64,000 nt of DNA from Ignavibacteriota bacterium. GTDB lineage: Bacteria; Bacteroidota; Ignavibacteria; Ignavibacteriales; Melioribacteraceae. The stretch's first letter is position 1; every line of letters begins with the position of its first letter. The notes beneath the pieces are model-generated. The model searched no databases and was not told the DNA's origin. It saw only the letters and a program-made list of their open reading frames with translations. The stretch is taken from the NCBI GenBank assembly GCA_013112585.1, contig JABFGH010000004.1, positions 124,001 through 188,000 on the forward strand. Direction: 5' to 3'. Of the stretch, positions 3,548-50,460 are shown piece by piece. The position numbers and the translations under genes are program-made.

Positions 3548-4848
3548 GGTTAATTAAAGAAAATACATTCGCCTTTGAATCTTTTTATGATTCGCTGCGA
3601 GAAAAACGGCAGATAGAAAATAAAAAGAATGGATCATTAAATTTTGATTATGAGAATGAGAACCCCAATACTCTGCTTCAAAAGTATGCTCACTTCATTC
3701 AAAATATTTCTCTTCTCGAAAATAAAATTAATAATGCCGATTCAAGCGATTCAATAATTAGTATTTTCAATGCGGCAATTAAAAGAATACTCACTTCAAA
3801 AAAAGCCGACTTCTTTTTCTTCGATAAAACAAATCAGACTTTTTACCCTGCTGTAAAAACAAATGATGCCGCCGCCGGATTTATAAATCATATTAATAAG
3901 GAAGGTATTCTGGATTGGGTATATGAGAATCGCGAGCCGACCATTATTCCCGACACAAAAACTTACAGCATTAAAGGCTCCCAGTTAAACTATTTAGTTT
4001 TCCCAATAATTCAGAACAATAAGAACAAAGGACTGCTTTCAATAATAACTCCTATTTCCTCAGTTTCATCTTTTTCCATAGAAGTACACATGGTAAAAAT
4101 TGCTATCGGCATTGCGTTTCCCCGCATTCAGCTTTTAAGAAAGCAAGAAAGAATGAACAGAGTTTACAAAGAATTGCAAACATACCAATCAAAACTAAAG
4201 CAGGATTATAAACTTTCGGCAATTGGCGAATTGACTGAAGGTATTGTTGAAAATTTACTAACACCAATGCAGATAATACTTAGCAATACCGAAATGCTGG
4301 AGGAAAAATATGGCGAAACTGATAAAGAGAATTTTGTATCAATAAAAAAACAGATAAAATCAATTGATGCAATGGTAACAAGACTTGTAAAATTTTCCAG
4401 CAGAAACAGAACTAAAGAATCAACACAATCATGCGACTTAAATAAAATTATTTCCGACTATTTTCAATTGATCGAATCATTCTTCAAAAATAAAAATTAC
4501 GAATGCATTGTCGATCTTGAAGAAAATCTTCCGACAATTCTTAGTCACCCCGACCATATAAAGCAATTGCTCACACATGTGTTTTCGATTATACGGGCAA
4601 ACATGAATGATGACGGCGGATTGCTGGTTCAGACAAAACAATCGCAGGAAAAAGTAATTATTAGAATTATAACTACAGATTATATAGCCGGTTTAGCCGG
4701 TAGCAATTTAGCTGAAAGCAGTGATGCCAGTATTAAATTAATTAAAAATTTAATGAAGAAGCACGAAGGGAATATAACCTGTAAAGCGCAGCCTTCATCC
4801 GGTTCGCATATTGTATTAGAATTTCCTTTAAGAAGGAAGCTGAGATAA
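3544..4848 (+). CDS. GAF / histidine-kinase-like protein lacking the phospho-acceptor His
   Basis: A 434-aa protein with a GAF-like sensor region (about 60-195), a dimerisation helix pair (about 220-290) and a degenerate kinase C-terminus (about 315-430). The H-box position, normally G-I-A-H-E-x-N-N-P, reads GIVENLLTP, so the phosphorylated His is Glu. The N-box region (LLTHVFSIIRANM) lacks the catalytic Asn pattern, and the D-x-G-x-G box is replaced by IAGLAGSNLAES. It therefore looks like a pseudokinase, possibly an allosteric partner of the HDODs. The start is TTG at 3544, overlapping the preceding stop. No membrane segment is obvious. Confidence 0.72.
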   Translation: MRLIKENTFAFESFYDSLREKRQIENKKNGSLNFDYENENPNTLLQKYAHFIQNISLLENKINNADSSDSIISIFNAAIKRILTSKKADFFFFDKTNQTFYPAVKTNDAAAGFINHINKEGILDWVYENREPTIIPDTKTYSIKGSQLNYLVFPIIQNNKNKGLLSIITPISSVSSFSIEVHMVKIAIGIAFPRIQLLRKQERMNRVYKELQTYQSKLKQDYKLSAIGELTEGIVENLLTPMQIILSNTEMLEEKYGETDKENFVSIKKQIKSIDAMVTRLVKFSSRNRTKESTQSCDLNKIISDYFQLIESFFKNKNYECIVDLEENLPTILSHPDHIKQLLTHVFSIIRANMNDDGGLLVQTKQSQEKVIIRIITTDYIAGLAGSNLAESSDASIKLIKNLMKKHEGNITCKAQPSSGSHIVLEFPLRRKLR

Positions 4849-5597
4849 TGAAATTTATGAGATCACCAATAGCGGTTATGTTTTATTTATTAGGGTTAAC
4901 ACTAAATGCACAAATTGCACCGGATAGTGTTAACATAAAGATGATAGTTCAAAATCAAATTAAAGCTGCCCAGGAAGTTTTAGAAAAAGAGAAAGAAAAA
5001 ATTGAAATCTATAAAGCCGAGCAACAGGCTAAAGTAAATTCAGCAAAGAAAAATACTGCGGGAATAACGCAAGAAGTAAAAGCTGAAGATGACATTTACT
5101 TAAAACTGTACATAGTATTAACAGCGGTATTTTTAGCAACTCTTGTTGTGGCTTACAGAAGAAGAAAAGCAATTGAAAAAACATTACGCGAACGGCAGCT
5201 TAAGAAAAATATTAAACTGATGCGCGAAGAAACTCCATATACAAATGCTGAAGATGAACTAAAAGATCTGCGTAAAATTATGCTTAATGCCGCCGAAATG
5301 AGTGACAGTGCGAACGAATTAACTATGGGGAAAGATAATTTCAGATTATCGAAAGGTGAAATTTTACTTGCCGAAAAAATTATTGCAAAACGGAAAAAGA
5401 CAAAAACTAAAATTAAGAGCAGTGACAAAAATGATAAAGCAGAAGCTCAAACCGGTAGAAAACAAAAGGCTAAAATTGAAAAGTCGATTGGCTTGAGTGA
5501 AGAAGAAATATTAAAGAAAGCAAAAGAATTAAAAATTTCCCGCGAGGAAGTAATGTTAGCTGAACTGTTGAAAAAAATAAAATCGAGTGCGGCATGA
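4848..5597 (+). CDS. unknown membrane protein with coiled coil and basic cytoplasmic tail
   Basis: A 249-aa protein I do not recognise. The N-terminus looks like a signal peptide (cut near LNAQ). A charged, probably coiled-coil stretch follows (about 30-70), then one transmembrane helix (about 84-100, LYIVLTAVFLATLVVAY) and a long Lys/Glu-rich C-terminus. Its position between the regulatory genes and flgF suggests a flagellum-linked role such as FliO-like or motor-associated, but nothing specific supports a name. The start overlaps the preceding stop by one base. Confidence 0.6.
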   Translation: MKFMRSPIAVMFYLLGLTLNAQIAPDSVNIKMIVQNQIKAAQEVLEKEKEKIEIYKAEQQAKVNSAKKNTAGITQEVKAEDDIYLKLYIVLTAVFLATLVVAYRRRKAIEKTLRERQLKKNIKLMREETPYTNAEDELKDLRKIMLNAAEMSDSANELTMGKDNFRLSKGEILLAEKIIAKRKKTKTKIKSSDKNDKAEAQTGRKQKAKIEKSIGLSEEEILKKAKELKISREEVMLAELLKKIKSSAA

Positions 5598-5633
5598 CAA
5601 ATAATATTATTGAAACTAAAAGCCGGATGAAAA

Positions 5634-6341
5634 ATGATTAAAGGAATATACAACGCATCGCGCAGTATGAATGCCGGAATGAAAAACATGAATGCTGTTG
5701 CAAATAATTTAGCAAACCTAAATACAACCGGTTATAAACGGCTTGTACCTTTTACGGAAGTCATGTCTGAATACGCGCCCGGCAAGGTTCATCAGCTAAC
5801 AGATTTTAGGGAAGGTGAATTAGTTAACACGCAAAATAGATTAGACATGGCGTTAAACGGTGATGCCTTTTTTGCCGTTCAGTCGGATAGCGGAATTAGA
5901 TTTACAAAGAACGGCAAATTTAATATTTCTGATGACGGCTATTTAACAACTGAGAGCGGTGATAGAGTTCTGGGTCATTCCGGAGAAATTAATGTTACAA
6001 GATTTATGCTTGAGAAAGACCCGGAAGTAATTATAAATGATAGCGGTCAAATTCAAATTGGCAGTAACATTGTTGATAAATTATTGATAACAAAAATAAG
6101 TGATAAACAATCTTTAACCCATGATCAAAACTCCAATTTCATTTTGCGTGAAGGAAATTTTGGAATTGCAGATGCTGCCGATTATAAAGTTATGCAGGGT
6201 TATTTAGAAGCATCAAATGTAAATCCGATTTTAGAAATGGAATCGATGATTAAAACAAGTAAGAACTACGAAACTTCACAAAAGATTGTTAACTATTTAG
6301 ACCAGTCACTTTCGATGGCTAAAGAAATAGGAAAAGTTTAA
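5634..6341 (+). CDS. flgF: flagellar basal-body rod protein FlgF-like
   Basis: A 235-aa rod/hook-family protein, slightly shorter than its neighbour FlgG. The N-terminal signature (MNAVANNLANLNTTGYKR, about residues 20-37) is the conserved rod helix. The middle DMALNGDAFFAV and the C-terminal MQGYLEASNVNPILEMESMI with an amphipathic helix complete the family pattern. Preceding flgG and being the shorter copy favours proximal rod FlgF, although FlgF and FlgG are close paralogues. It should be exported by the flagellar type III apparatus, consistent with the absence of a signal peptide. Confidence 0.82.
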   Translation: MIKGIYNASRSMNAGMKNMNAVANNLANLNTTGYKRLVPFTEVMSEYAPGKVHQLTDFREGELVNTQNRLDMALNGDAFFAVQSDSGIRFTKNGKFNISDDGYLTTESGDRVLGHSGEINVTRFMLEKDPEVIINDSGQIQIGSNIVDKLLITKISDKQSLTHDQNSNFILREGNFGIADAADYKVMQGYLEASNVNPILEMESMIKTSKNYETSQKIVNYLDQSLSMAKEIGKV

Positions 6342-6352
6342 GGAGAAAATAA

Positions 6353-7153
6353 ATGTCATCAAGATCATTACGTACAGCAGCTTCCGGAATGAATGCACAG
6401 CAAATTAACATCGAAGTAATTTCGAATAATATTGCAAACATTAATACTACCGCGTTCAAAAAGAACAGAGCAGAGTTTCAGGATTTGATGTATCAGGAAA
6501 TCCAGGTGAATTCAATCTCTTCACCGGCGAGCGGAATTTCGGATACTATTTCAAATAAAATTGAAGTAGGTAACGGCGTTAAGCCCTCATCAACACAGAA
6601 GCTGTTTAAGCAGGGCGATTTAACTGCTACAAATCAGCAGCTTGATGTTGCTATTCAAGGCGAAGGTTTTTTTCAGGTACGGAAAGCTGACGGCTCTTAC
6701 GCTTACACGAGAGACGGTTCATTTAAGATTGATGCAAACGGTCAAATGGTAACTGCTGCAGGTTATTCTTTAGACCCTGATATAATTTTTAGTGAAGATA
6801 CTTTGGGAATGAGAATTGCACGTGACGGAACGGTAGAACTGGAAACTGCAAGCGGCGATTTAATTTCAGTTGATTCAATTCAGCTCGTTCGTTTTTTGAA
6901 TCCCGGCGGCTTAGCTCCTATAGGCGATAATCTTTACCTGGAAACACCCGAATCGGGTACGCCTTTGTTTGGTGTTGCCGGAAGTGACGGCTTCGGTGAA
7001 CTGCATCAAGGTTATCTTGAATCTTCCAATGTGGAAATTGTTGAAGAAATGATTGCTATGATTACCGCTCAGCGTTCTTATGAAATAAATTCTAAAACTG
7101 TAAAAACAGTTGAAGAAATGATGAGCATGGCAAATAATCTTAAAAGAGGTTAA
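6353..7153 (+). CDS. flgG: flagellar distal rod protein FlgG
   Basis: A 266-aa protein, the usual FlgG length. It has the rod signature (VISNNIANINTTAFKK), the central LDVAIQGEGFFQV and YTRDGSFKID motifs, and the C-terminal LHQGYLESSNVEIVEEM followed by the conserved AQRSYEINSK. A strong Shine-Dalgarno sequence (AAGGAG) precedes the ATG. It forms the distal rod inside the P- and L-rings, which are encoded just downstream. The gap from flgF is 11 bp. Confidence 0.93.
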   Translation: MSSRSLRTAASGMNAQQINIEVISNNIANINTTAFKKNRAEFQDLMYQEIQVNSISSPASGISDTISNKIEVGNGVKPSSTQKLFKQGDLTATNQQLDVAIQGEGFFQVRKADGSYAYTRDGSFKIDANGQMVTAAGYSLDPDIIFSEDTLGMRIARDGTVELETASGDLISVDSIQLVRFLNPGGLAPIGDNLYLETPESGTPLFGVAGSDGFGELHQGYLESSNVEIVEEMIAMITAQRSYEINSKTVKTVEEMMSMANNLKRG

Positions 7154-7158
7154 TTAAG

Positions 7159-7809
7159 GTGGTTACATTTTTATTAGGAATATTGTTTTTAATTTCTCCG
7201 GTTAAAAAGGAGGCTGAACTAAAAGTTGAGAAATACTTAAATCAGCGATTGACAAATTGTGAGTCTTTCGAATTTGAAATTTTCAACATTCCTAAAAATA
7301 TTTCCGACTTTAAAATTAAAGAGAATGATGAATTTGTAATTAGCGGTTCGATCTGCTACATACCTATAAAAGCTGTCCGAAATAATCATTCAGAATTCAA
7401 CTCTCTTTTATCAGTAAAAATTAAAAGATATTCTAAAATTCTTGCGGCAGTCAATTCGATAGAAAATAAATCTGAATTATATCCTGCGGATTTTGAATAT
7501 AAAACAATTGATATTACTGCTTTAAGAGGCGAACCCATTACTGAGTTAAATTCTATTAGTTCGTTCAGAGCAAAATGCTTTATAAAAAGCGGAGATGTAT
7601 TAACTGAAAATATGATTGAACTGCTGCCGGCAGTTTATTCCGGTGATAAGATTACGGCAAATATCAAATATGGAAATGTGATTGTTTCCACCGATGCTTA
7701 TGCAAGAAACGACGGAAGCATTGGAGACATAATTAAAATAAGAACCAGAGATAATAAGCAGTTTAAAGCAGAAATTTTAGATTCAAAAAATGTTAACATA
7801 ATTGAGTAG
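7159..7809 (+). CDS. flgA: flagellar P-ring assembly chaperone FlgA
   Basis: A 216-aa FlgA/SAF-domain protein that helps FlgI polymerise into the P-ring in the periplasm. The N-terminus is hydrophobic (VTFLLGILFLISPV) and works as a short export signal. The C-terminal SAF part shows TALRGEPI, FIKSGDVLTENMIE, GDKITANIKYGNVIVSTDAYA and GSIGDIIKIRT, typical of FlgA. The start is GTG, six bases after the flgG stop, with the SD inside the gap. Its location between flgG and flgH-flgI fits the role. Confidence 0.85.
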   Translation: MVTFLLGILFLISPVKKEAELKVEKYLNQRLTNCESFEFEIFNIPKNISDFKIKENDEFVISGSICYIPIKAVRNNHSEFNSLLSVKIKRYSKILAAVNSIENKSELYPADFEYKTIDITALRGEPITELNSISSFRAKCFIKSGDVLTENMIELLPAVYSGDKITANIKYGNVIVSTDAYARNDGSIGDIIKIRTRDNKQFKAEILDSKNVNIIE

Positions 7810-7813
7810 AAAT

Positions 7814-8389
7814 ATGAAACGAATACTAATTACAATAATTTTTTTAGCATCTGCATACAACCTATGCGCACAGGATTTTAGAAACAATGCAAACGCTTCA
7901 CTTTTTTCCGATCAGAAAGCGGCGCGTGTTGGCGATGCAATTACAATTTGGGTTGTCGAATCATCCGAAGCATCAAACAATGCTCAAACTTCAACCAGTA
8001 AGGATAGCGATTTGGGTTTAAATTTCGGCGGCTCTTTGGATGAAACAAATTTACCGCAGGCGAATTTCGGCATGGATACTAAAAATGGTTTTAAAGGCTC
8101 AGGCTCAACCCAAACAAGGGGAATGATAAAAACTAAAATTAGTGCAAGAATAGATTCAATGCTTGCAAACGGAGATCTGTTTATTAAAGGAAGCAGAAAA
8201 ATATCGATCAACGGTGAAGAACAAACATTGTTTATTAAAGGTATAGTTAGGGCTTCAGACATTAGAGCCGATAATTCTGTGTTATCATACAATGTTTCGG
8301 ATGCAGAATTTATTTTTGACGGCAGCGGTATGATTGCTAATGCGCAGGAGCCGGGCTGGTTAACAAAATTTTTCCATTGGTTATTTTAG
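7814..8389 (+). CDS. flgH: flagellar L-ring protein FlgH
   Basis: FlgH forms the outer-membrane L-ring. The start chosen is ATG 7814 (191 aa), because it gives a clean signal peptide. A TTG at 7802 would add four residues and overlap flgA. Family motifs are SLFSDQKAARVGDAITIWVVE near the N-terminus, GMIKTKISARI and NGDLFIKGSRKI in the middle, then the C-terminal IRASDIRADN-like segment. FlgH is normally a lipoprotein. Here the candidate lipobox is weak (YNLC before AQD), so simple signal peptidase I cleavage after AQ is equally likely. Confidence 0.9.
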   Translation: MKRILITIIFLASAYNLCAQDFRNNANASLFSDQKAARVGDAITIWVVESSEASNNAQTSTSKDSDLGLNFGGSLDETNLPQANFGMDTKNGFKGSGSTQTRGMIKTKISARIDSMLANGDLFIKGSRKISINGEEQTLFIKGIVRASDIRADNSVLSYNVSDAEFIFDGSGMIANAQEPGWLTKFFHWLF

Positions 8390-8396
8390 GTTCAAT

Positions 8397-9488
8397 ATGA
8401 AAAAGTTAATAATTCTAATAACGCTGTTTTCACTAACGCAATTAAATGCCCAGAGGATTAAAGATTTGGGATTTATAAACGGTGAAAGCTCGGAGCAGAT
8501 AATCGGCTACGGATTGGTTGTAGGTTTATCGGGTACAGGTGATAGTCAGCGTTCATCATTTACCGTACAGTCAATTACAAGTATGCTTAAAAGATTCGGC
8601 ATTACTGTTCCCCAAAATAATTTAAGAACCCGCAATGTTGCCGCAGTAATGGTAACGGCTACCTTGGACACTTACCTTAAACCGGGAACAAAGTTCGACG
8701 TTAACGTTGCCTCACTTGGGGATGCCCGGAGTCTTGAAGGAGGAACACTTTTGATGAGTCCTTTATCAGGAATCAGCGGCGATGTTTATGGATTTGCTCA
8801 AGGACCAATTTCCGTAGGCGGATTTGATGTTAGAACAAGAACCGGCAGCAGGAATGCAAAAAATCATGCACTTGCAGGCAGAGTACCGCAAGGTGGAAAT
8901 CTGCAGAAAGCTTTGAGTACGTCAGAAATTTCAACCAGTGAAATAACAATTTATTTAAAGGAACCTGACTTAACAACAGCAAGCAATGTAATGGATGCGG
9001 TTAATACAACATTTGGCGATGAAACTGCAAAAGCAGTCGATGCTTCAGAAATTAGAGTTACTGTGCCGGGTGAAAGACAGGATAATATTATTGGTTTTTT
9101 AAGTGAGCTTGAAGGCTTGAATGTTGAGCCGGATTTTGTTGCTAAAGTTGTGCTTAATGAAAGAACAGGAACAGTTGTATCAGGCAGTCATGTTCGCATT
9201 CAGCCGGTAACAATTTCTCACGGCGGATTAAATATTGTTATCGATTCATACCCGATAATTGCAACGCCGTCACCATTTACTTCGGGTGTTGATACAAAAG
9301 TGGTTTATGATCAAACTGCCTATGCGTCGCAGGATTCCAGCGGTACGATTGCCATTGACGGTGCTTCAAATATTCAGGAAGTAGCCGCAGCACTTAATTC
9401 ATTAAAAGTAGCACCCAGAGATATTATTGCAATTTTTCAGGCATTGAAAGAAGCAGGTGCTTTAGTAGCGGAATTGGTGATAATCTGA
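8397..9488 (+). CDS. flgI: flagellar P-ring protein FlgI
   Basis: A 363-aa FlgI, full length. The signal peptide ends near LNAQ. Family sequence is clear: RIKDLGFINGESSEQIIGYG, GLVVGLSGTGD, RNVAAVMVTA, DVNVASLGDARSLEGGTL, ERTGTVVSGSHVRI, and the C-terminal LNSLKVAPRDIIAIFQALK. It forms the periplasmic P-ring around the rod with help from FlgA. It overlaps flgJ by one base (TGATG). Confidence 0.96.
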   Translation: MKKLIILITLFSLTQLNAQRIKDLGFINGESSEQIIGYGLVVGLSGTGDSQRSSFTVQSITSMLKRFGITVPQNNLRTRNVAAVMVTATLDTYLKPGTKFDVNVASLGDARSLEGGTLLMSPLSGISGDVYGFAQGPISVGGFDVRTRTGSRNAKNHALAGRVPQGGNLQKALSTSEISTSEITIYLKEPDLTTASNVMDAVNTTFGDETAKAVDASEIRVTVPGERQDNIIGFLSELEGLNVEPDFVAKVVLNERTGTVVSGSHVRIQPVTISHGGLNIVIDSYPIIATPSPFTSGVDTKVVYDQTAYASQDSSGTIAIDGASNIQEVAAALNSLKVAPRDIIAIFQALKEAGALVAELVII

Positions 9489-46875: not shown

Positions 46876-47613
46876 TTAATTATCCAAATCGAAAACGATA
46901 TTTTTTCTAGCTGCTTCAATATCTTCAACTGTATCAAGTTCCATACATTTCAATCCATTAACATCAACGGCATAAATTTTACATCCTGCTTCAATCGTTT
47001 CCTCAAATGCAGCTTCGTACCATTGATTAACTTCGCCGCGGTTCAATATTTTATCATCCAAAATATCAAAAAGTGTTATTAAGTATTCGGAACTAAATAA
47101 TTCAATTCCTATTGATTCACCAATGGCAATCTTAGGATCAACAACTTTGTTAATCTTGGTTATCGCACGGTCTGAATCAACTGTTACTTTTATTTCTTCT
47201 TCCCCCAACTGATGATCGGAACGGATTGCAAGACAGTTTTTATAACCGGAATTTAACAACAACTCAATTATTCTATGATCAAACAAAATGTCGCTGTCCA
47301 TTAAAAGCATATCATTATTTAAAACTAATTCCTTGGTCATCCATAATGAATAAATATTATTCGTCGAGTCATACTTTTCGTTGTACAAATATTCAACATT
47401 AAGCTGCGGATAATTGCTGCCGATGAAATCTGTAATTTGTTCCTGCATAAATCCCGTTACTACAATAACATCCTTAATATCATTTTTAATTAAGTTATCA
47501 ATTGTTCTTTCAAGAATATTTTTTTCACCAATTTTCAGTAAACATTTTGGAGTATTGTTTGTTAAGGGTTTTAAACGGGATGCAACACCTGCGGCTAAAA
47601 TTACGGCTTTCAA
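46876..47613 (-). CDS. sugar/choline-phosphate nucleotidyltransferase (LicC-like)
   Basis: A 245-aa NTP transferase. The N-terminal MKAVILAAGVASRLKPLTN is the nucleotide-binding loop, then PKCLLKIGEKNILERTI. The segment YDSTNNIYSLWMTKE resembles CTP:phosphocholine/2-AEP cytidylyltransferases such as LicC and PntC. LLMDSDILFD holds the metal-binding Asp residues. Combined with the overlapping CDP-alcohol transferase, it probably makes a CDP-linked headgroup donor. The 4-base overlap (ATGA) with the upstream gene indicates coupling. Confidence 0.85.
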   Translation of the reverse strand: MKAVILAAGVASRLKPLTNNTPKCLLKIGEKNILERTIDNLIKNDIKDVIVVTGFMQEQITDFIGSNYPQLNVEYLYNEKYDSTNNIYSLWMTKELVLNNDMLLMDSDILFDHRIIELLLNSGYKNCLAIRSDHQLGEEEIKVTVDSDRAITKINKVVDPKIAIGESIGIELFSSEYLITLFDILDDKILNRGEVNQWYEAAFEETIEAGCKIYAVDVNGLKCMELDTVEDIEAARKNIVFDLDN

Positions 47614-48491
47614 ATTTGACCTGCTAATTTGGTTGATTTATTAATTCTATTTTGGAAAAAGTAGAGAACAGCCATATAAAGGTTGCCAACGGTAACAATA
47701 CCAATTAGGTAAATATCCAATCGGTTAAACATAGCTGTGATAATTAAAAATGTTAATTCAGTGGTTGGACCTAAATATGTCCAAAGGTGCATAATAGTTT
47801 TATGTTTTTTATAAAAATCTTTTGCGTCATATTTTTTCTTTTCTGTTTCCAGGGAACTGGAAGAAAATTTTAATTGGACTTTTGAATAGAGAAGATAAAC
47901 CCAAAGAATACTCTTTTCATAGTAGTGTCCTTTTTTGTCCTTCAAGTCGTCCTGCATATCCTGAAACTCTTTTAAGCTATCGCCCAAAATACTTTCTCTA
48001 TTGAGTGAATAATCTAAAAAGCGATTTCTGTAAAAATCCAATATAGATGAGTGAACAGCATTGCTTAAACCTGCTGCAATTGTTAAACCCCAATACAGTA
48101 AAGGATTATCGCTATTGCTTGCAAACCCAATTCCGATAAATAGATATGCCAATGTTGTAACAATGTAGTCTGCTAGTCCGTCCAGCACTCTGCCGATCGG
48201 CGTTCCATTTTTTTTAATTCTTGCTAACTGTCCGTCGGCGCAATCGAGCACATCATAAATAATAAATAAAATTGCCGCTGTAAAAAGTGCTGTGGGTGTA
48301 TTAAAATAGAATAGAAAACTTCCTACAACTCCAAATAACAGTGCAGTGGTTGTAATTTGATTAGGGGTTAAATTTGTGCCGATAATCATCTTAACAAATA
48401 TAAATGCTAATGGTCTATAAAAAATGAGGTCGAGGATTTCCTCAACCTCAAGCATTTTTAATGATCGTTTATAATCTTCTAGTAATTTCAT
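47610..48491 (-). CDS. CDP-alcohol phosphatidyltransferase-family membrane enzyme
   Basis: A 293-aa integral membrane enzyme. The active-site signature D-G-x2-A-R-x8-G-x3-D-x3-D is visible as DCADGQLARIKKNGTPIGRVLDGLADYI. Membrane helices surround it. It transfers a CDP-linked headgroup or lipid to an alcohol. With the flanking cytidylyltransferase and aminotransferase it may complete a Kennedy-like pathway. A charged loop of about 60 residues (about 165-225) lies between helices. It overlaps both neighbours by 1-4 bases. Confidence 0.9.
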   Translation of the reverse strand: MKLLEDYKRSLKMLEVEEILDLIFYRPLAFIFVKMIIGTNLTPNQITTTALLFGVVGSFLFYFNTPTALFTAAILFIIYDVLDCADGQLARIKKNGTPIGRVLDGLADYIVTTLAYLFIGIGFASNSDNPLLYWGLTIAAGLSNAVHSSILDFYRNRFLDYSLNRESILGDSLKEFQDMQDDLKDKKGHYYEKSILWVYLLYSKVQLKFSSSSLETEKKKYDAKDFYKKHKTIMHLWTYLGPTTELTFLIITAMFNRLDIYLIGIVTVGNLYMAVLYFFQNRINKSTKLAGQI

Positions 48492-49531
48492 TAGGATAAA
48501 TTATTAGCGGCAAATTCTTTGATAGCATCAATTAATAATTTGTTCTCTTCCTGAGTACCCAAAGTAATCCTCAAGTGATGGTTAAGTAATTCTTCATTCA
48601 TAAATTTAACTACCAGCCCTTTCGATTTTAAGAATTCCTTTAAGTCAGCTTGAATTTCATCCGGGATTTCGACAAGAATAAAATTTGCGTTTGATTTATA
48701 AGCGGTAAAGCCGGGGATTTTGTTCAATTCAGTAAAGAACATTTTTCTATCCGAATCCATTTTATCGGCAATATCTAAATAGTAATCCGGGGAGTCTAAT
48801 GCAGCAAGCGCCACTTCTTCTGAAATTCTATGGTAGCCTAAATATCGATTAGTATATTTGTTTAGTTGTGCTAAATTCTCTCCTAAAAGTCCAAACCCAA
48901 TTCTCATTCCAGCCAAAGCATAATATTTTGAAAAGGTTCGGATAACAAGCAGGTTGGGATAACTATTGACTAAGTTTCTCACAGTTTCATTCATAACATT
49001 ATAAAAGTACGCTTCATCTAAAATTATAATTGCATCCTGCAGTTTCTCTAAAACCTTAATCAAATTTTCCTGCGAAATTGAATTACCGGTAGGGTTATTA
49101 GGAGAACTGATAAAAACCATTTTAGGTTTTTCTTTGTCATATTTTTCAAACAAAGCATCAATATCATATTCAAAAGTTTCACCATTAGGAACCAGCGGAT
49201 ACTCGACATTTATACCGTCAACTTCATCTGCAATTTTTTTGTAGTACCACCATGAGTGAGTTGGAATCATTAGTTTTTCGCCCTTGCCGAGATAGCATTG
49301 CACAGCTTGTTTTAATAAATCTTCTGCACCGTAACCGAGCACAACCCTGCTTTCGGGTATATCAAATTCTTTTGCAAGTCTTTCCGATAAAATACTTTTC
49401 ACGCCTCTGGAATATGCCTTTGTGTACCAGCTGAGTTTTGTCAAATCTGCCTTTTTTAGTACCTCGAAACACGCAGGTGCAGGACCATAATTATTTTCGT
49501 TCCTATCAAGATAAATCATTTCTTTTTCCAT
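48491..49531 (-). CDS. HisC/CobD-like PLP aminotransferase or decarboxylase
   Basis: A 346-aa fold-type I PLP enzyme. Landmarks are LDRNENNYGPAP, YGAEDLLKQAV, SSPNNPTGNSIS, ILDEAYFYN and the PLP-Lys in RTFSKYYALAGMRIGF. It reads as HisC-like, but CobD-type L-serine/threonine-phosphate decarboxylases share these features. Standing first in an operon with a cytidylyltransferase and a CDP-alcohol transferase, and with no other his gene present, a phospho-amino-alcohol role (phosphoethanolamine formation) is plausible. Histidinol-phosphate transaminase is the conservative alternative. Confidence 0.85.
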   Translation of the reverse strand: MEKEMIYLDRNENNYGPAPACFEVLKKADLTKLSWYTKAYSRGVKSILSERLAKEFDIPESRVVLGYGAEDLLKQAVQCYLGKGEKLMIPTHSWWYYKKIADEVDGINVEYPLVPNGETFEYDIDALFEKYDKEKPKMVFISSPNNPTGNSISQENLIKVLEKLQDAIIILDEAYFYNVMNETVRNLVNSYPNLLVIRTFSKYYALAGMRIGFGLLGENLAQLNKYTNRYLGYHRISEEVALAALDSPDYYLDIADKMDSDRKMFFTELNKIPGFTAYKSNANFILVEIPDEIQADLKEFLKSKGLVVKFMNEELLNHHLRITLGTQEENKLLIDAIKEFAANNLS

Positions 49532-49659: not shown

Positions 49660-50460
49660 TTAAAATAGTAATATTGCTGCCCTGTATGCTAAATAAAAAC
49701 TAATACCAATTAAACAAATACCCAGTCCCTGTATAATTTTTGTTAATAGATTTATGTTAAATTTCTGTCTGTATTTAACAATTAATTTTGAATAAACATA
49801 AAGCCAAATGTAACTTCCTAAAGCAACTGCAAGAGCATAAATAACGGCAAGTAAAATAGAAGATAACTTTTCCCCTTCGCCTGCTTTTGTATCGGTCTCC
49901 TCAATATCAATATCATTCAAACCTTCGAACTCATCATCGCCAGTTAGTTCTTTTAGTGATTCAACATTTTGATTTACAATTAAATCAAGTCCCCCGGTGT
50001 TTAATCCTACCGAAGATGCAAATGAAAAAACGATAAATGTAGAAATCAGCCAGCCTAAAAAAAGTGAGGGGTTTGTAAGATTTACAAAAACGCCTGTTCT
50101 AAAACCTCCTTTGTTTCTAATCTTGTCCTTCATAATTGTTTTGGATTCAAGATTTTTTACATCAAGTTTTGTCTTAGTAATTTTTATTCCTACAAAAACA
50201 AGAATTATGCTTCCGGCAATTAACAAGTAAGGTATAAAAGGTTTGTATAGTGCGTACAGCGCAGTAATTCCGTAAACCACAATTAATACATAAAAGAATT
50301 CCATAATGCAGGCGCCGAGGGCTGTACGCATGCAGTATCGGAATTTGCCGGCTAATGCATTAGTTGTAATAATAATGTTTATTGGTCCGGCAACAGGTAT
50401 CGAAAAAATAAACCCGGCTGTAAAACCAATTATGGTAAGTGTAATTATACTTTCTATCAT
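49660..50460 (-). CDS. LysE/RhtB-family amino-acid exporter with acidic loop
   Basis: A 266-aa membrane transporter. The LysE signature is at the N-terminus (GFIFSIPVAGPINIIITTNAL), and further helices follow, ending FYLAYRAAILLF. Between the fourth and fifth helices is an acidic insert of about 45 residues (TGDDEFEGLNDIDIEETD), which most LysE proteins (about 205 aa) lack. It is on the same strand as the aminotransferase but 129 bp upstream, and divergent from the next gene. Confidence 0.82.
   Translation of the reverse strand: MIESIITLTIIGFTAGFIFSIPVAGPINIIITTNALAGKFRYCMRTALGACIMEFFYVLIVVYGITALYALYKPFIPYLLIAGSIILVFVGIKITKTKLDVKNLESKTIMKDKIRNKGGFRTGVFVNLTNPSLFLGWLISTFIVFSFASSVGLNTGGLDLIVNQNVESLKELTGDDEFEGLNDIDIEETDTKAGEGEKLSSILLAVIYALAVALGSYIWLYVYSKLIVKYRQKFNINLLTKIIQGLGICLIGISFYLAYRAAILLF

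Follow-up and report, generated by a model that had tools for sequence, protein, structure and literature searches.

A probable Kennedy-like CDP-headgroup operon with a HisC-derived PLP enzyme in an Ignavibacteriota genome

The window analysed here – a stretch of 64,000 nucleotides from the genome of an Ignavibacteriota bacterium – contains a real Kennedy-like operon for a CDP-activated headgroup, built from three overlapping genes that encode a PLP enzyme, a CDP-alcohol phosphotransferase and a cytidylyltransferase; the CDP-headgroup logic is itself already known in bacteria. On sequence grounds we take the genes, their coupling and conservation, their catalytic motifs and the separation of the PLP enzyme from HisC and CobD to be firm. 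The leading reading of the operon as a whole (a PLP step, activation by CTP, and transfer of an amino-alcohol headgroup, phosphoethanolamine, to a lipid) we judge to be evenly poised between right and wrong. The first-pass annotation had proposed a Kennedy-like headgroup operon, and that proposal is supported in part: the operon stands, as do the Kennedy-type logic and a PLP enzyme distinct from the HisC of the genome. The genes are as follows.

46876..47613, minus strand: LicC/PntC-like cytidylyltransferase, 245 aa, TTG start (Pfam NTP_transferase, 5.6e-14)
47610..48491, minus strand: CDP-alcohol phosphotransferase, 293 aa, membrane protein (PF01066, CDP-OH_P_transf, 8.6e-14; 52.6 bits against a cut-off of 22)
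48491..49531, minus strand: PLP-dependent fold-I enzyme, 346 aa (Pfam Aminotran_1_2, 5e-43)
49660..50460, minus strand: LysE-family membrane protein, 266 aa, upstream of the triad (PF01810, 3.4e-17)

The open reading frames of the triad (46876-49531) are as first described, all on the minus strand: the PLP and transferase genes overlap by 1 nt (TAATG), the transferase and cytidylyltransferase genes by 4 nt (TTGA), and 128 nt separate the LysE-family gene from the PLP gene. The protein classes originally assigned are likewise borne out by Pfam and NCBIfam, which are concordant. A promoter search for the operon gave nothing convincing (14 matches against 21 expected by chance). A terminator-like hairpin (11 bp followed by T6) lies at 48450-48425 on the minus strand, within the 5' end of the transferase gene; it is strong in only about a third of transferase orthologues and is probably a by-product of the codons for LEVEEILDLI. 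Downstream genes for porin-, CotH- and PAP2-like proteins were considered as members and placed outside the operon, since they were not seen beside the triad in relatives.

That the three genes form an operon is upheld by the overlaps together with a gene order conserved in relatives and in other phyla. Among 146 genomes searched (the window's own included), a transferase close to that of the window (47-64% identity) is encoded by 17 relatives, every one of which retains the order PLP enzyme, CDP-alcohol phosphotransferase, cytidylyltransferase, with 45-68% identity per protein. The LysE-family gene adjoins the triad in 11 of these 17 (12 of 18 lineage genomes when the window's is counted). 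An initial contig scan with the transferase sequence alone as query returned no matches. When named genomes were scanned with the PLP alignment, members of the PLP clade (40-53% identity) were found in Ignavibacteria, Aminicenantes, Krumholzibacteria, Acidobacteria, Desulfobacterales and Bacteroidales, Segatella and Prevotella being among the last; complete sets of the three genes are present in Aminicenantes (L095), Acidobacteria (L103) and Krumholzibacteria (L100). At 68 PLP-clade loci a cytidylyltransferase is encoded on the same strand within 4.5 kb in 60 cases, and a CDP-alcohol enzyme, by the same measure, in 49: the association of the genes across lineages is far above chance expectation. 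Mirror-distance correlation, applied as a test for a core pair of PLP enzyme and cytidylyltransferase, was greater for the PLP enzyme with the CDP-alcohol phosphotransferase (0.83) than with the cytidylyltransferase (0.66).

The closest NCBIfam model for the PLP clade is hisC (TIGR01141), to which the window enzyme scores 248.5 bits, under the cut-off of 276.55; its score to the CobD model (TIGR01140) is 138.2 bits, under a cut-off of 290.55. The genome holds nine matches to the hisC model, one of which exceeds the cut-off (362 bits). This true hisC, whose existence the first-pass annotation had marked as a point to check, belongs to a hisG-hisD-hisC run on a different contig, away from the triad, and rules out the window enzyme as the sole hisC of the genome. 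In a tree of 91 PLP sequences the window clade (46 rows) has support of 100/94 and the genome's own HisC falls outside it, while CobD, SMUL_1544 and the PLP domains fused to a cytidylyltransferase in genomes G033 and G047 make up another clade (100/99); deep HisC branches are weakly resolved. Of the two placements entertained at first, HisC or a CobD-type decarboxylase of serine phosphate, neither describes the enzyme: it lies outside HisC, and so is not the HisC of its genome, yet it lies outside the CobD/SMUL_1544 group too.

Within the clade the PLP lysine K202 is retained, as are D172, R210 and R321, whereas the P-Y/F-N stretch of HisC is replaced by Y-L-G (230-232), position 67 is Tyr rather than the Asn of most HisC sequences, and K309 stands where HisC and CobD have Arg; R10 and S-W-W-Y-Y (93-97) are additions. 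Comparison of the predicted fold does not separate the groups, Z being 31-36 for HisC and CobD alike among the matches listed. From its sequence the enzyme belongs to a HisC-derived family of its own, a clade not previously set apart from HisC. Both profile scores and tree place it nearer HisC than any known decarboxylase, so that transamination is equally natural by ancestry; and since it lies outside the CobD and SMUL_1544 groups its reaction could be a transamination, for example of DHAP to serinol phosphate. Decarboxylation of phosphoserine is plausible, and transamination of DHAP is its main rival.

The solved structures closest to the cytidylyltransferase are LicC (1jyk, 4.9e-20) and PntC (6pd1, 2.8e-16), and the enzyme has the NTP_transferase fold, the active-site Arg and Lys and the acidic pair of that type, retaining R13, K23, D106, D108, E200 and D227. 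PntC has a pair of glutamates next to the substrate amine where LicC has two aspartates (PMC6697681); the pair at these amine-binding positions is here D106/E200, invariant in all of the 31 clade sequences, out of 32, that span both positions (L103 is incomplete). Pfam matches are to NTP_transferase and related families, with none to the Pcyt2-type CTP_transf_like family. We propose that the substrates are CTP and an amino-alcohol phosphate, as these residues suggest; against this reading counts the presence of sugar and inositol phosphate enzymes among the best profile-family matches.

The CDP-alcohol phosphotransferase carries the motif DxxDGxxAR(8)GxxxDxxxD which, with its PF01066 score, places it in the family; the motif (D83xxDGxxAR...G100xxxD104xxxD108) is invariant in 23 transferase sequences. 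An AlphaFold2 model (pLDDT 85) is most similar to AF2299 (Z 22) and DIPP synthase (Z 19), followed by PIP synthases (Z 16) and cholinephosphotransferase (Z 13.6). Because a dedicated cytidylyltransferase adjoins the transferase, the latter would take a CDP-headgroup as donor and a lipid hydroxyl as acceptor: that the donor is a CDP-amino-alcohol we regard as probable, and with similar confidence we expect the acceptor to be a lipid.

The nature of the headgroup is indicated by the company that related transferases keep. These occur with three supply modules: that of the window, an aminoethylphosphonate pathway, and a cytidylyltransferase–CobD-like fusion. In three genomes (G011, G062 and G116) the transferase stands beside a PEP mutase (PepM)–NTP fusion, a phosphonopyruvate decarboxylase (Ppd) and a PntC-AEPT fusion, as identified from profile matches for G011 and from sequences for all three; the loci L071, L072 and L073 are apparent aminoethylphosphonate phosphonolipid operons comprising PepM-NTP fusion, Ppd, PntC-AEPT fusion and CDP-alcohol transferase. 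G033 and G047 have, next to the transferase, the cytidylyltransferase–PLP fusion, the PLP half of which is nearest SMUL_1544 and CobD; such a fusion adjoins a CDP-alcohol transferase at L074:1-2909 and L075:1-2912. In the transferase tree the types with alternative modules lie near the window type, with deep branching poorly supported. The simplest common denominator of these modules is a small amino-alcohol phosphate or phosphonate headgroup, activated by CTP. PepM was searched for in the window genome and none was found: the headgroup of the window operon is therefore not aminoethylphosphonate. Its oxygen analogue, phosphoethanolamine, fits best, a choice in which our confidence is middling.

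On the leading reading the PLP enzyme would make an amino-alcohol phosphate, most likely phosphoethanolamine by decarboxylation of L-phosphoserine; the LicC/PntC-like enzyme would combine this with CTP to give CDP-ethanolamine; and the membrane CDP-alcohol phosphotransferase would move phosphoethanolamine to the hydroxyl of a lipid (diacylglycerol, ceramide or similar), releasing CMP. The LysE-family protein is a probable associated transporter or flippase, perhaps one that exports or flips the product or an intermediate.

In standard teaching bacteria make PE from CDP-diacylglycerol via phosphatidylserine; animal cells make it via a CTP-activated headgroup, and most bacteria do not. CDP-activated headgroups do occur in bacteria (Lic, Pnt, CpgD), but de novo synthesis of CDP-ethanolamine is not standard. 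The operon resembles the eukaryotic Kennedy (CDP-ethanolamine) pathway in that a headgroup phosphate would be activated by CTP and passed to a lipid by a CDP-alcohol phosphotransferase. It differs in being without an ethanolamine kinase – the headgroup being made de novo, as we propose, by the PLP enzyme – and in having a cytidylyltransferase that belongs to the NTP_transferase (LicC/PntC) family rather than to the Pcyt2 type. SMUL_1544, the Sulfurospirillum multivorans decarboxylase (PDB 6oux) that supplies ethanolamine phosphate for norcobamide, shares the CobD/HisC-like fold of the window enzyme, but groups with the PLP half of the fusions in G033 and G047, in a different clade.

With the Pnt pathway (PntC-AEPT, PMC6697681) the operon shares the coupling of a LicC-like cytidylyltransferase to a PLP enzyme, and Pnt-type modules in relatives include a CDP-alcohol transferase of the window's kind; unlike Pnt, it is without PepM and Ppd, its PLP enzyme is HisC-like rather than AEPT, and its acidic pair is D/E against E/E. 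In Bacteroides vulgatus a putative alternative cluster for inositol lipids has been described as Kennedy-like and unconfirmed; also unconfirmed is the route by NTP transferase and CDP-alcohol transferase that has been proposed for the inositol lipids of Bacteroides and Prevotella (PMC9246714). The same two enzyme types are present in the B. vulgatus cluster and in the window operon, where a PLP enzyme takes the place of MIPS and a HAD hydrolase. CpgD of Caulobacter, in the CDP-glycerate route to the lipid ceramide diphosphoglycerate (PMC12275187), is likewise a bacterial cytidylyltransferase of the inositol/phosphocholine kind supplying a CDP-headgroup for a lipid; its substrate is phosphoglycerate, unlike that proposed here.

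Should the leading reading be true, headgroup-first, CTP-activated synthesis as in eukaryotes would constitute a second PE logic in bacteria, and some PLP genes annotated as hisC may be lipid genes. The swapped modules (aminoethylphosphonate, CobD-like fusion, HisC-like) give direct, testable predictions of headgroup chemistry.

Were the PLP enzyme instead an aminotransferase converting DHAP to serinol phosphate, the operon would lead to CDP-serinol and a serinol-headed lipid (elsewhere to a serinol-bearing polymer), an outcome we consider unlikely. Its HisC ancestry is that of a transaminase family, and both chemistries have precedents: two PLP enzymes of Campylobacter jejuni capsule synthesis are Cj1436, which decarboxylates serine phosphate to ethanolamine phosphate, and Cj1437, a serinol-phosphate aminotransferase (PMC12409886), while RtxA makes serinol phosphate from DHAP (PMC3222319). 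The Campylobacter enzymes are likened to that of the window by their described reactions; unlike what is proposed for the window operon, their product is attached to a glycan by amidation and is not first activated as a CDP derivative (PMC12409886). With D106 where PntC has Glu, the site would be roomier, and the presence of Psd in the same genomes would be accounted for by a product that is not redundant. On the other side, the alternative modules on related transferases yield heads of the aminoethyl type, and the literature searched turned up no serinol phospholipid of bacterial origin.

A serinol product is also favored by the presence, in some PLP-clade loci, of a TagF-like gene for a CDP-glycerol-type transferase. 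Five loci from Desulfobacterales and Bacteroidales (L094, L102, L108, L111 and L131) have such a CDP-glycerol-glycerophosphotransferase-like gene (Glyphos_transf; two identified with Pfam, the others because they resemble those two) near the PLP-clade and cytidylyltransferase genes, suggesting a polymer modified with the CDP-headgroup; the product thus need not always be a lipid. Prevotella-type loci have a different type of CDP-alcohol transferase beside an LPG_synthase_TM membrane protein, and together with the CDP-glycerol-type genes this indicates that the CDP-headgroup may serve different acceptors.

The window genome carries PssA and Psd genes side by side. The operon is thus not its only possible route to PE, and plain PE would be a redundant product. 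Psd is present in 16 of the 18 triad genomes of the lineage, on which account the operon as a substitute for the PS route was rejected: in this lineage it stands alongside the usual route to PE rather than taking its place. Retention of Pss and Psd would be explained if phosphoethanolamine were transferred to ceramide, giving ceramide phosphoethanolamine rather than PE. For this sub-case of the leading reading, which we again think improbable, speaks a serine-palmitoyltransferase-like gene in the genome, located beside an SDR-family gene; its score of 489.6 bits, however, is under the curated cut-off of 640, and a genome that is 99% complete (G017) has the triad but is without an SPT-like gene. 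Since 131 of the 146 genomes possess an SPT-like gene, with or without the triad, co-occurrence of the two carries no information on a sphingolipid link.

A different background is provided by the class Krumholzibacteriia, from which 78 genomes were sampled (G152, G157, G187-G262). The PLP clade is present in 12: in nine carriers PLP, CDP-alcohol, cytidylyltransferase and LysE-family genes form one run, the last directly after the triad, and the other three are cut by contig ends. Psd was detected in 3 of the 78 genomes and in none of the 12 carriers, and in two carriers examined the sole other CDP-alcohol enzyme found is PIP-synthase-like. These data are consistent with synthesis of an amino-headed lipid by the operon in this class, and in that case it would suggest how such lipids are made by carriers where Psd is scarce. 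The absence of Psd is nevertheless not a correlation with the triad, because it is class-wide (75 of 78) and the MAGs are incomplete; as specific support it was rejected. The most far-reaching version of the phosphoethanolamine reading – that the HisC-derived clade, found in five phyla or more, represents a new family of phosphoserine decarboxylases feeding a complete de novo CDP-ethanolamine pathway to phospholipid and, in the Krumholzibacteriia carriers, where Psd is nearly absent, the aminophospholipid route – is one that we advance tentatively and lean against.

It is very unlikely that the PLP enzyme is a second histidinol-phosphate aminotransferase lying by chance with an inositol-type CDP-alcohol module. 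Such a coincidence could be read from hisC as the best profile and from the likeness of the transferase to AF2299 and DIPP synthase, but the score falls short of the hisC cut-off, the clade is separate, the P-Y/F-N motif and N67 are lost, a true hisC stands in a his run elsewhere, and the association of PLP enzyme with cytidylyltransferase persists across phyla. CobD, CobY and CobS have roles superficially like those of the triad, and the CobD model gives 138 bits for the PLP enzyme, but a cobalamin side branch (CobD-like, nucleotidyltransferase, CobS-like) is barely credible and was rejected on clade placement, the PLP enzyme being outside the CobD clade, and on the full CDP-alcohol phosphotransferase motif of the membrane enzyme, no cob gene having been recognised among those recurring neighbours that were annotated.

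The window genome also encodes a paralogous CDP-alcohol transferase (L049, C8:40000-51000, 3965-8946), which is accompanied by genes for a class-III aminotransferase, an inositol-dehydrogenase-like Gfo/Idh protein, an HpnL-like membrane protein and a HAD phosphatase. Similar neighbourhoods recur in many relatives (L076-L093), and the gene content is such that this cluster could supply a headgroup of the amino-inositol type.
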